Source: Tupaia tana (lineage: Eukaryota; Chordata; Mammalia; Scandentia; Tupaiidae). Taken from it: a stretch of 64,000 nucleotides of DNA. The position numbers were made by a program, and so were the translations under genes. The stretch lies in contig JAKSZU010000016.1 of NCBI GenBank assembly GCA_026018925.1, positions 5,252,940 to 5,316,939 of the forward strand, in the 5' to 3' direction. The notes below the pieces were generated by a model. The model did no database searches and was not told where the DNA came from. It saw nothing but the letters and a program-made list of their open reading frames with translations. Shown in pieces: positions 2,759 to 64,000 of the stretch (positions are counted from its first letter, which is position 1; every line of letters starts with the position of its first letter).

Positions 2759-3140
2759 GGGGTCTTTAAAAGTTCGTGGAGGGAACCAGCAGTTAGCGTA
2801 ACGGCTATGTCGCTTGACTCCCACGTAGTCGACCGCGGTTCGCGTCCCAGACCCAGTGGCTTAAAACTCACACCGGGCGCGTGTGCGTGCGTGCCCAAGA
2901 TCCCGAGAGGAGAATGGAGGAGAAGGGATTGTGGCGTGACCATCCCCCCTGGGGGGTGATTTCTCGCTTTCTGTCTCTATGTCTCTCTCTGTCTGGCGAG
3001 CACACGCGCCCTATAGCGAAAACCTCTCCAAAAAAAAAAAAAAGTTCGTGGAAAAAGACTATGCATGGATTTCAAAAAACATTTGCACCAAAATAAATTC
3101 ATACTTCCATTTCATTTTTCCACCAACTTTTTGAAGTCCT
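2759..3140. mobile_element. Miniature DNA transposon (about 120 bp) split by a SINE
   Basis: With the inserted SINE removed, the left end (ggtctttaaaagttcgtgga, 2,761-2,780) is nearly the reverse complement of the right end (ttttccaccaactttttgaa, ending near 3,140). That gives terminal inverted repeats of more than 20 bp. A related copy lies at 46,076-46,199, and both share an internal aaataaattcatact block. It has no coding capacity, so it is a non-autonomous DNA transposon; mariner affiliation is a guess. Confidence 0.7.
2781..3042 (+). mobile_element. tRNA-derived SINE, subfamily A, young
   Basis: A full-length copy starting gggaaccagcag, with A box tagcgtaacgg, B box ggttcgcgtcc, many intact CpGs, a CT-rich 3' region and a 13-bp A tail. 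The host transposon sequence aaagttcgtgga is duplicated on both sides. It carries the subfamily A diagnostic set: GGAACC head, extra base in GGCTTAAAACTC, GTGACC, and CTCTATGTC. Confidence 0.96.
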
Positions 3141-3211
3141 CACCATGCTATGGATCTGCTTATGTATAGTAGTCCTCCATATGGCCTCAAAGCATTGCAA
3201 TAGCTAAGTTG

Positions 3212-3475
3212 TTTTTTTTTTTTTTTTTTAGAGGTTTTTGCTATAGGGCGCGTGAGCTCGCCAGAAAGACAGAGAGAGACAGAGAGACAGAAAGCGAGAA
3301 ATCACCTCGTGGGGGGATGGCCATGTCGCAATTCCTTCTCCTCCATTCTCTTCTTGGGATCTTAGACACGCACGCACATGCGCCCAGCATGAGTTTAAGC
3401 CACCAGGTCTGGGACTCGAACCATGGTCGACTACATGGGAGTCCAGCGACAGCCATTACGCTAACTGCTGGTCCC
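3212..3475 (-). mobile_element. tRNA-derived SINE, subfamily B
   Basis: The element runs from a long T-tract to tgctggtccc on the + strand. A perfect duplication, aatagctaagttg, flanks it at about 3,199-3,211 and 3,476-3,488. The head and B box are well preserved, with a small deletion in the tcgctggactc part. Confidence 0.95.
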
Positions 3476-3488
3476 AATAGCTAAGTTG

Positions 3489-4189
3489 TTTTTTATCTCC
3501 TGGTGCAGTATTGTACCCTCACCCCCGTGTGCATGTACTCAAACATTCTATCACACAATATCCTACCAAGCATTGATTACGTCTTGCTTCCATAGGCACT
3601 GTATGTGAAGGAAGCCTTTTGAAATGATTGGCTAACATGTTCTTACAGGAAAAGATGACCTAACAGTACTCACACAGTGTGTGCGCACCTCTCTTGTGAA
3701 TGTTGGTGTCACGGCTGCTGGACTTATGGGGAGTGAGCATATAGCTGGGCTGAAGCTGGGCATCCAAAAATAGTTCCTGACTACAGGTGTATTTGGACTT
3801 GAGCTCAGTCTGCTGTGGAAGTGAAGCGCCTGCAGCTAAGCCACCACGCTGCACTCTATTTTGTTACATTCCCACCGCGGCATCAAGGTAACCAAGGCTT
3901 GTCTCCCTCTCCCTCCTCCTAATCTTCTCAGCTTGATCCTGACACCTTCAGCCATAACAGCGCAGTTTCTTTCCTCTTCCTCTGTTCTGTGGACATTAAG
4001 TGTTGGAATCAGAGCGGGTAAATGCAAAGTAATAAGAATAAAAAGCTAATAAAGAAAGTGAGGAAAGGAAGAGAGAGGGAGAAATAGAGGCTCTAGGGCA
4101 GGCATTGTGAAAAGTCTGCTAAGAGGTAGATGGAAATAAGGGCGAAGTGTCTCACTATGGTGTCTGGATGGTTCTAGAATCCTGATTGT
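3489..4189. other. Unassigned sequence
   Basis: No repeat or gene is recognised. It includes a purine-rich AGGAAAG/GAGA patch near 4,040-4,110. Short overlapping open frames on both strands have no recognisable product. Confidence 0.45.
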
Positions 4190-5449: not shown

Positions 5450-5742
5450 TAGGAGTTGCCAAGTCATGGCCTTTGGGTCAAATGTGAATATTTAAAAATT
5501 TACATGTGATTGGGGGAAACAAAAGACTATTTCAGGACATGTGTAATGCTACAGAATTCAAATTTCAGCGTCTGTAAGTAAAATTGTATAGGGACACATC
5601 ATACTCACCTATTCATGATGTTTTGCTTACCTCTGTGCTATAACAGCAGTGCCAAAGTTATGACAGAAGCCATGTGGCCTGGAAAGCCTAACACACCTAC
5701 TATCTGGTCTTTTCAGGTCGAGTTTTCCTGCTTTAGATAATT
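5450..5742. mobile_element. hAT-Charlie-type non-autonomous relic
   Basis: Landmarks of a widespread mammalian hAT-type MER element are visible in order: gttgccaagtcatggcc near the left end, gtaagtaaaattgtatagggacaca in the middle, and gccatgtggcctggaaagcctaa followed by tactatctggtcttttcagg at the right. Divergence is high and no transposase fragment is seen. The exact subfamily name is not assigned. Confidence 0.6.
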
Positions 5743-22970: not shown

Positions 22971-23214
22971 ATATGTCACCCTCAGTAGTAAAATGTTGGT
23001 ATAAATTGGTGAGCATAAGATGCATATGTCTTACATATATGGGAATATATATACATGTTTGTATAGGAACACATAATTATTATAAATAACTAAAATAGAT
23101 GTGATTTATATAAAATATATACATAAAATATATTAATATGTATAAATAACATAATCCACGTAAAGTATATATGCATAAAATATATTATTTATTTTAAAAA
23201 TATGATTATATGTG

Positions 23215-61936: not shown

Positions 61937-61948
61937 AAATAGTCTTTG

Positions 61949-62244
61949 GGGACCAGCAGGTGGTATAATAGTTACGTTGCTGGATTCTCACATGGCTAAC
62001 TGCGGTTGGAGTCCAGGACCAGGAGGCTTGAAACTCACACCAGGTGCGTGTGCATGTGCCTGTGCACGTGCGTGTGCGTGTGTGCCCAAAATCCTGAGAG
62101 GAGACTGGAGGAGAAGGGATTGCAGCATGGCCATCCCCCCTGGGGAGTGATTTCTCTCTTCTATCTCTCAGTCTCTGTCTCTCTGGCAAGGGTAAGTGCC
62201 CTATAGCAAAAAAAGCTATCTACAAGCAAACAAACAAACAAACA
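61949..62244 (+). mobile_element. tRNA-derived SINE at the L2 end
   Basis: A full-length older copy with an expanded gtgtgcatgtgcctgtgcacgtgcgtgtgcg run in the head-proximal part and a (CAAA)n tail at 62,224-62,246. Perfect duplication aaatagtctttg at 61,937-61,948 and 62,245-62,256. Confidence 0.96.
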
Positions 62245-62335
62245 AAATAGTCTTTGAATTAAACTGAGTAGAAACTGGAGAAGGCACCTTATCAGTTTTA
62301 TCTTTTCCGGCTCTTGTGAAAACAAAAGAAAATTT

Positions 62336-62378
62336 CTTTGGAGCTAGTTTTTAAAATAAATAAAAACTAGCTCCAAAG
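62336..62378. repeat. Perfect 18-bp hairpin adjacent to long inverted repeat
   Basis: The arm ctttggagctagttttta (62,336-62,353) is the exact reverse complement of 62,361-62,378, with a 7-bp AT spacer. It ends exactly where the left arm of the long inverted repeat begins. Confidence 0.95.
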
Positions 62379-62989
62379 CCCTAACAGAATCTATTGAAAA
62401 ACTGTGTATGTTTGTGTGTGTGTATGAGAGAAACAAAAAGTAAAAGAGAGACAAAATGAGAGTGAAAGACAGACAGACAGAGACTACATTAGAGGCAGAC
62501 AGGAAACCAAGCATGTAGGTCTTCTCACTGAGAAAGCATAATGCCTTTTACATCTTGGTATAACAGAAAGATAAAATAAGAAAAAAAAAAAAAAACAAGA
62601 TTTAAAATAAATAAGATAGTAGAAAAATGGCAACACTACCAAAAAAATCTTACAGAAACTGATAATATTGATCTTTGGTTGGTGTTCAAATGTGAACAAT
62701 GCTAGACCCACGCTTACGTAAACTTTTGTGTTTCGTTTTGTTTTGTTTTGTTTTGGGTAAAGATTTACTCCAGTGAAATGTCTGCTTCTCATTTCATCTT
62801 TCTTTTATACCAAAATGTAAAAGGCATTATGCTTTCTCAGTGAGAAGACCTACATGCTTGGTTTCCTGTCTTCCTCTAATGTAGTCTCTGTCTGTCTGTC
62901 TTTCACTCTCATTTTGTCTCTCTTTTTCTTTTTGTTTCTCTCGTACACACACACAAACATACACAGTTTTTCAATAGATTCTGCTAGGG
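62379..62989. repeat. Long inverted repeat, 199-bp arms, about 97% identical
   Basis: The left arm 62,379-62,577 pairs with the right arm 62,791-62,989 as reverse complements of equal length, with about seven mismatches and no gap in my alignment. The 213-bp spacer holds an A run and a (GTTTT)n run. The arms contain GT-, GA- and CAGA-rich text plus a single-copy-like core (aggtcttctcactgagaaag). No target duplication or transposase is evident, and no known repeat is recognised. Confidence 0.93.
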
Positions 62990-64000
62990 CTGGGCAACCA
63001 TAGTTTATCATGGTGGGGTCCTCAAATCTGCAAGATTCCATAATCTGTCTTTGTTCCTTAGCATACTCTTGCTTCTGGAAGGTTCCTGATATAAATTCAT
63101 TTCAAACATGTTAAGAAAAACAATGCCTGGTACTGACTCTTGCTTCTAAGTATGGAAAACATGATTTTATGCTATTAGCTGTTACACTTTTTGTTGGTGC
63201 AGATGCTATTATCTGATTTAAACATCGAAGGGATGATTTTATTTTGTTTGTACCCTGGAGGCTCAAAAGAAGAAAGAAAGAAAAGACAGCACCATTTTGA
63301 AAAGGAAAGCATCCAATAATTAAATCTGCTTTCCCAGAGATGAAGAGCAGATGTTCTGTCTCTTTCGTGGAGTGGGAGTGTGTGGACACTTAGGGGAGCT
63401 GTACCCAGAGCATGTTTCATCATCTTAAAAAGTCAAGGGGTTTGAGGGAAGTCCCTAGACATGGGAGGTCTGGCTGGGATAAATCCGTACTTGTGCAGCA
63501 ACACAAAAGGGAATTTGCCACATTTTTTTGGCAATCGTATAATTTTGAAATTTTCCTCCAAACTCTCAAATGTAAAAGATTGTTATCACCACAAATGAAT
63601 AGTTTTGAAAATGAGCAGGAAAAGAAAACTTTTTTTAACTTGGCTAAGACAGTCTTACTAAGCAAATTGTTACTCACAGCAACTTCTGCAACAGCCTACC
63701 ATGCATGAGAAAAGTCACACCATACAAAAAACAAAGCCAGCATCGGGGTTGCCTCATTAACCATTGTGGGTGCAAAAGACTGAATGTTCTCTTTATTCTA
63801 TTGCATGGGAAATGATTCTAAGGCTATCAGAACCACCTGAGGAGCCCTCTCAAACTCTCTTGCTTAATCATTCTTTCTGTTCTTATACCTCTACTGTCAT
63901 ACGCTCCACCTGAGCCTCCCAGGGCAGACAGATGTAATCTTTTTTTTTTCTTTATTCATGATAGAGGAAGTGTGTGTATGAACAGGCTCATGTGTATGTG
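62990..64000. other. Unassigned right end of window
   Basis: No repeat or gene recognised. The final bases (T-run at 63,940 then ctttattcatgatagagg) could be the tail of a cut-off minus-strand SINE, but this is not supported. Confidence 0.4.

Follow-up and report, generated by a model that had tools for sequence, protein, structure and literature searches.

Introduction

Among the closest described systems are the repair-mediated duplications of the human genome, of which Pace, Sen, Batzer and Feschotte (2009; PMC2671141) report 1,136, including 20 chimeric acceptors with two donors. The same survey gives 824 human duplications within 5 kb, with a mean length of 162 bp, a maximum of 619 bp and microhomology of 2-9 nt; among the copies that it analysed at sequence level, a poly(A/T) tract at an end was seen in 0 of 39 proximal versus 17 of 29 interchromosomal ones. 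Another described system is the fold-back inversion at yeast breaks, reported to span ~5-34 bp and to use 0-5 bp of microhomology, with a median of 2, for its closure (PMC11724301). Two reported sequence preferences also bear on the present locus: the surroundings of template-switch points are enriched in poly(dA:dT) (PMC7954356), and the L1 endonuclease prefers 5'-TTTT/A-3' (PMC5110952).

Here we describe an inverted repeat of Tupaia tana that we assign to a known class of mutation, the proximal inverted duplication with a fold-back junction. The structure was probably made by one local DNA rearrangement, in which a fold-back and a template switch occurred during repair or replication.

Sequences and search criteria

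The window, i.e., the whole stretch of 64,000 nucleotides that was analysed, corresponds to C275:5252940-5316939 of its own 2.95-Gb assembly. The left arm of the inverted repeat was searched against this entire assembly; simple repeats and very common words were skipped, and repeat counts are lower bounds. A sample of 294 kb combined the window with 23 loci, each of 10 kb; a single one of these shares 40 bases with the window. Repeat pairs in this sample were required to lie at most 5 kb apart, with at least 60 aligned bases and at least 85% identity. The sample was also scanned for perfect hairpins with loops of 3-20 nt, and the statements on hairpins below refer to the best 30 of 48 hairpins of at least 14 bp, taken longest first.

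A single-locus inverted repeat

The inverted repeat is real and consists of the following parts (window positions):

62377..62582, plus strand: left arm of the inverted repeat, the inferred acceptor (new copy)
62583..62785, no strand: spacer between the arms, 203 nt, without abundant repeat
62786..62991, minus strand: right arm of the inverted repeat, the inferred donor (original)

In local alignment the arms are 206 nt each, ungapped, with 8 mismatches (96.1% identity), and they are 203 nt apart; repeat scans give a looser extent of 223 nt at 93%. A self-BLAST over arms and spacer (655 columns, E 2e-144) excludes a chance match. The original prediction had placed facing arms of 199 bp at 62379..62989, and this narrower core (62379-62577 versus 62791-62989) is indeed present, with 7 mismatches in 199 positions and no gap. 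Half of the eight mismatches are concentrated in 62554-62582, the final 29 nt of the left arm, and the inner boundary may therefore really be a few bases short of 62582. The spacer carries four TTTTG units at 62736-62755, 30 nt ahead of the right arm.

Read by eye from the alignment, the differences between the arms are five transitions and three transversions, and these eight substitutions accrued as expected of neutral DNA. This mix is relevant to the reading of the structure as a false fold-back made in assembly or library preparation: fold-back of the same molecule gives near-identical arms, yet 8 of 206 positions differ here in a neutral-looking mix, and the 18-bp hairpin and the A15 run described below are found on one side only. 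We regard an artefact as highly improbable.

The Jukes-Cantor distance between the arms is 0.040 (3.9% divergence). The neutral rates assumed here are 2.2e-9 to 4.5e-9 per site per year. At these rates the duplication would be roughly 4-9 million years old, or 2-18 million years with Poisson error, figures uncorrected for possible gene conversion; the event, which had been called recent, is thus recent only in a relative sense. The accompanying claim that the identity of the arms far exceeds that of older repeats in the window holds only in part, since some SINE pairs of the window are 91-95% alike over 132-278 nt.

Besides the two arms, the genome search with the left arm recovered four partial matches (75-79% over 75-86 bases). 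The four weaker matches (L003-L006) are TG/GA microsatellites, which leaves two high-identity places in the assembly, namely this pair. The check that had been proposed, a search of the arm against the genome, therefore points to a single locus with no dispersed copies, for this query and the 2.95-Gb assembly. In the 294-kb sample, 34 repeat pairs fell within our limits and 10 of them were inverted; the arms at 62377-62582/62786-62991 were the sole inverted pair without further copies in the sample.

These searches bear on the suggestion of the original prediction that the structure is an uncharacterised foldback element, and likewise on a MITE-like transposon with long terminal inverted repeats. 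Long near-identical inverted arms around a short non-homologous middle are what such an element would offer. However, no further copy of the arm was found in the 2.95-Gb assembly (with counts being lower bounds and very common words skipped), and no direct repeat of at least 7 nt brackets the whole structure, when 62300-62380 is compared with 62985-63070. Moreover, none of the abundant repeats of the 294-kb sample was matched by the spacer or the outer flanks. A transposon family was rejected on the single locus and the missing flanking duplication, and an origin of this kind is hardly credible.

Compared with the 294-kb sample, the arms, the spacer and the outer and acceptor flanks contain no abundant repeat beyond a SINE that ends near 62240. 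A paralogous empty site was sought in the same sample by means of the acceptor flanks, and none was found, as the flanks match no abundant repeat. The SINE itself (61949-62240) looks tRNA-derived and has ~150 core matches in the sample; by eye, it is flanked by AAATAGTCTTTG at 61937-61948 and 62245-62256, an ordinary target-site duplication.

Junctions of the left arm

The original prediction left out three features: an 18-bp hairpin that abuts the left arm, an A15 run and a 14-nt direct repeat. They are arranged as follows:

62336..62353, plus strand: left arm of the hairpin, CTTTGGAGCTAGTTTTTA, the original flank of the acceptor site and inferred fold-back template
62350..62363, plus strand: TTTAAAATAAATAA, first member of a direct repeat of 14 nt and a possible target-site duplication
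62354..62360, no strand: hairpin loop AAATAAA, 7 nt
62361..62378, minus strand: right arm of the hairpin, TAAAAACTAGCTCCAAAG, the inferred snap-back copy of 62336-62353, with its last 2 nt (AG) common to the donor
62581..62595, plus strand: run of 15 A's (A15) at the left arm's inner end, with no counterpart in the donor arm
62601..62614, plus strand: TTTAAAATAAATAA again, 5 nt past the A15 run, as second member of the direct repeat

The hairpin (62336-62378) has 18 perfect pairs out of 18 and ends exactly at the boundary of the left arm, with 2 nt (AG) of microhomology at the junction. It is the only perfect hairpin of at least 17 bp in the 294 kb outside TA/TG simple repeats: every longer perfect one consists of TA or TG/CA simple repeats, and 16 bp is the length of the next non-simple one. 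The presence of so rare a hairpin at this boundary indicates that the rearrangement was sealed on the left, and hence that the left arm is the acceptor. The opposite polarity, with the right arm as the inserted copy, was considered and rejected: the longest common word in the right arm's own flanks is 7 nt, and the hairpin adjoins the left arm. We infer from these two observations that the right arm is the donor and the original of the two copies.

Several properties of the copy are those of a proximal duplication. It is 206 nt long (at least 50 bp is expected), it was found at one other place in the assembly, and its donor lies in the expected range of distances, from over 50 bp up to 5 kb; the junction consists of 2-nt microhomology with the fold-back stretch as filler. 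At the switch point, the 18-bp hairpin constitutes a reverse-complement copy of adjacent sequence, as expected of a template switch. The restriction of the arm to this locus, the abutting fold-back hairpin and the microhomology together support DNA template switching, and a local inverted duplication by this route, which the original prediction had offered as a possibility, is the reading that we retain. Short-range template-switch events are usually shorter than the 206-nt arm.

The proposed rearrangement would have proceeded in the following steps: (i) a double-strand break or a stalled fork would leave a 3' DNA end at an A/T-rich site (TTTTTAAAATAAATAAAA...); (ii) this 3' end would fold back through TTTTTA/TAAAAA, the 6-nt inverted microhomology present at the site, around the loop AAATAAA, and would copy 12 nt of its own flank (CTAGCTCCAAAG); (iii) by means of AG (2 nt), the end would switch to the complementary strand ~0.4 kb downstream (the distance before insertion); (iv) the right arm would serve as the second template, of which ~204 nt would be copied backwards; and (v) the end would be joined again to the broken site, at an A-run whose A's match.

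The hairpin and the arm could also be the products of two events, the first being a short template switch that made the 18-bp hairpin, and the second a later break of this palindrome, with capture of the inverted copy. Many palindromes are described as fragile sites (PMC7999016), and since all 18 pairs of the hairpin are intact, its age is poorly bounded. Against this stands the junction itself, where the arm begins at the last pair of the hairpin with 2 nt in common, and where a single serial switch needs fewer steps; breakage of a palindrome would, in addition, be more likely at its centre or loop. Two separate events are, in our estimate, quite improbable.

At the other end of the left arm, the sequence continues with A15 (62581-62595), CAAGA, TTTAAAATAAATAA (62601-62614) and then GATAG (62615); the donor arm, in the same orientation, runs on as GCAGACATTT where the left arm enters A15. 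The A15 run without a counterpart in the donor, and the 14-nt direct repeat that brackets the block (62350-62363 and 62601-62614), would also fit an RNA-templated origin: a minus-strand polyadenylated RNA across the right arm would have been reverse-transcribed by the L1 machinery into the TTTTT/AAAA site close by, and A15 and a target-site duplication would be its traces. The duplication would be TTTAAAATAAATAA or AAAATAAATAA, and the 5' junction would have been completed by fold-back of the 3' overhang of the target. We consider this route unlikely, the proposal for the duplication and the 5' junction included.

The donor end has TATAAA ending 18 nt before it, which we take to be a variant poly(A) signal and which speaks for an RNA template, and AAGAAA at 13 nt. 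AATAAA, however, does not occur within the final 45 nt of either arm, and an AATAAA 10-20 nt upstream of the tail would be expected of an L1-mediated templated insertion. The TTTTT/AAAA site lies in the orientation needed by the L1 endonuclease, given its reported preference (PMC5110952). The direct repeat is 14 nt long (at least 5 bp is wanted for an L1 product) and the A15 run, whether added or pre-existing, has a suitable length (10-40 wanted), but the two stand 5-8 nt apart, since the tail is separated from the supposed duplication by CAAGA (5 nt) or CAAGATTT (8 nt). The 14-mer TTTAAAATAAATAA is also not unique to the site: the window contains it a third time, at minus-strand positions 23185-23198 (3 found versus 0.01 expected). 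The template is not distant, as the donor is 203 nt off and no other high-identity place was found in the assembly. Finally, poly(A/T) tracts were reported for none of the 39 proximal copies versus 17 of the 29 on other chromosomes among those analysed at sequence level (PMC2671141), and poly(dA:dT) is described as enriched at template-switch sites anyway (PMC7954356).

It should be noted that under DNA template switching the TTTAAAATAAATAA repeat flanking the left arm together with A15 must be a coincidence. A shared word of at least 14 nt appeared in 49 of 5,000 first-order Markov resamplings of the A-rich flanks, and there are 60 A/T runs of at least 15 in the 294 kb, so that this coincidence carries a real cost.

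Other duplications in the sample

One further local duplication (L008) was found 14-16 kb past the right end of the window, with its two copies in direct orientation:

C275:5330890-5331085: first copy of the direct duplication (3991-4186 of the locus)
C275:5332395-5332592: second copy of the direct duplication (5496-5693 of the locus)

The copies are 94.6% identical over 202 aligned positions, lie 1.3 kb apart and have no further copies in the 294-kb sample. The first copy reaches into the tail end of a SINE, and the second interrupts what we take, by eye, to be L1-like sequence. The pair looks like a proximal repair-mediated duplication, and it shows a local-duplication process at work in this genome. 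It is the only other clear proximal duplication of the sample, and it is direct and not inverted, which counts against the DNA-switch reading of our locus.

Two more pairs are without further copies in the sample: one at 5458-5562/5871-5978 of L013, which is direct and 87% alike over 108 aligned positions, and one in L029, where the copies stand in tandem. All three pairs (L008, L013 and L029) are direct, and together they suggest that the local duplication of short stretches is not rare here. The sequence ahead of the second L013 copy is SINE-like by eye.

RNA folding and gene context

The predicted fold of the region's RNA has an energy of -371.5 kcal/mol, whereas 20 shuffles average -131 kcal/mol. 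The hairpin RNA proposed in the original prediction thus retains its conditional form: if the region were transcribed through both arms, a long hairpin RNA would be strongly favoured, as a consequence of the arms by themselves. The structure requires no function and gives no sign of one, and a cruciform or an RNA hairpin is a possible by-product of the palindrome. No Rfam family was found in the window at gathering score, and reading by eye of 90 stop-to-stop frames of at least 70 aa in 40000-64000 revealed no recognisable exon. Elsewhere in the window, an inverted pair of SINEs of one family lies at 2782-3043/3214-3475, with the members 171 nt apart and 85.7% alike; this pair (2782-3475) is a more usual dsRNA editing substrate than the 206-nt arms.

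Discussion

This single locus shows how one accident of repair or replication can turn single-copy DNA into a long near-perfect palindrome plus a small hairpin, and such palindromes provide material from which fragile sites or hairpin RNAs can arise. Otherwise the structure is an ordinary scar of mutation, and most likely neither a mobile element of a new kind nor an RNA gene. If the copy were RNA-templated, its A15 run and direct repeat, beside a proximal donor, would gain in interest. The left arm would then be a cis retrocopy of nascent, polyadenylated antisense RNA, captured downstream of the RNA's own cleavage site and within 200 bp of it; this we find doubtful. If true, it would run counter to the published split, in which poly(A) was reported on interchromosomal copies only (17 of 29 versus 0 of 39 among those analysed; PMC2671141), and if the A15 run and the direct repeat were made by L1, RNA could be copied back beside its own source.

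With the L1-mediated class 1 templated sequence insertions, as described in PMC5110952, the locus has in common a run of A's, whether added or pre-existing, a short flanking direct repeat that may be a target-site duplication, and a TTTT/A-type site. Unlike those insertions, it has a donor 203 bp off, a tail 5-8 nt away from the repeat and no AATAAA near the donor end.

The likeness to the four-point template-switch mutations (PMC7954356, PMC8794818) consists in a nearby reverse-complement copy, perfect inverted repeats and a poly(dA:dT)-rich setting. The DNA rearrangement that we favour would, however, comprise two serial switches, unlike the four-point model as set out in these accounts.

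The fold-back insertions reported in yeast (PMC11724301) are also short templated inverted duplications at a break, primed by inverted microhomology. The yeast cases described have a 41-nt loop, a short fold-back and an induced break, whereas here a 7-nt loop is combined with a long second template in a mammal-sized genome.

Finally, compared with the proximal repair-mediated duplications of PMC2671141, the locus differs in that its copy ends in A15, as none of the 39 proximal ones analysed there did in a poly(A/T) tract, and in its first template, which would be the site's own flank and would give the 18-bp hairpin. In other respects the described duplications and the present one agree: the donor lies between 50 bp and 5 kb off, the copy has one other place and a length of ~200 bp, and microhomology is found at the junction. 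The duplications of that survey also include acceptors with two templates and an example in opposite orientation (ACSBG2 exon).
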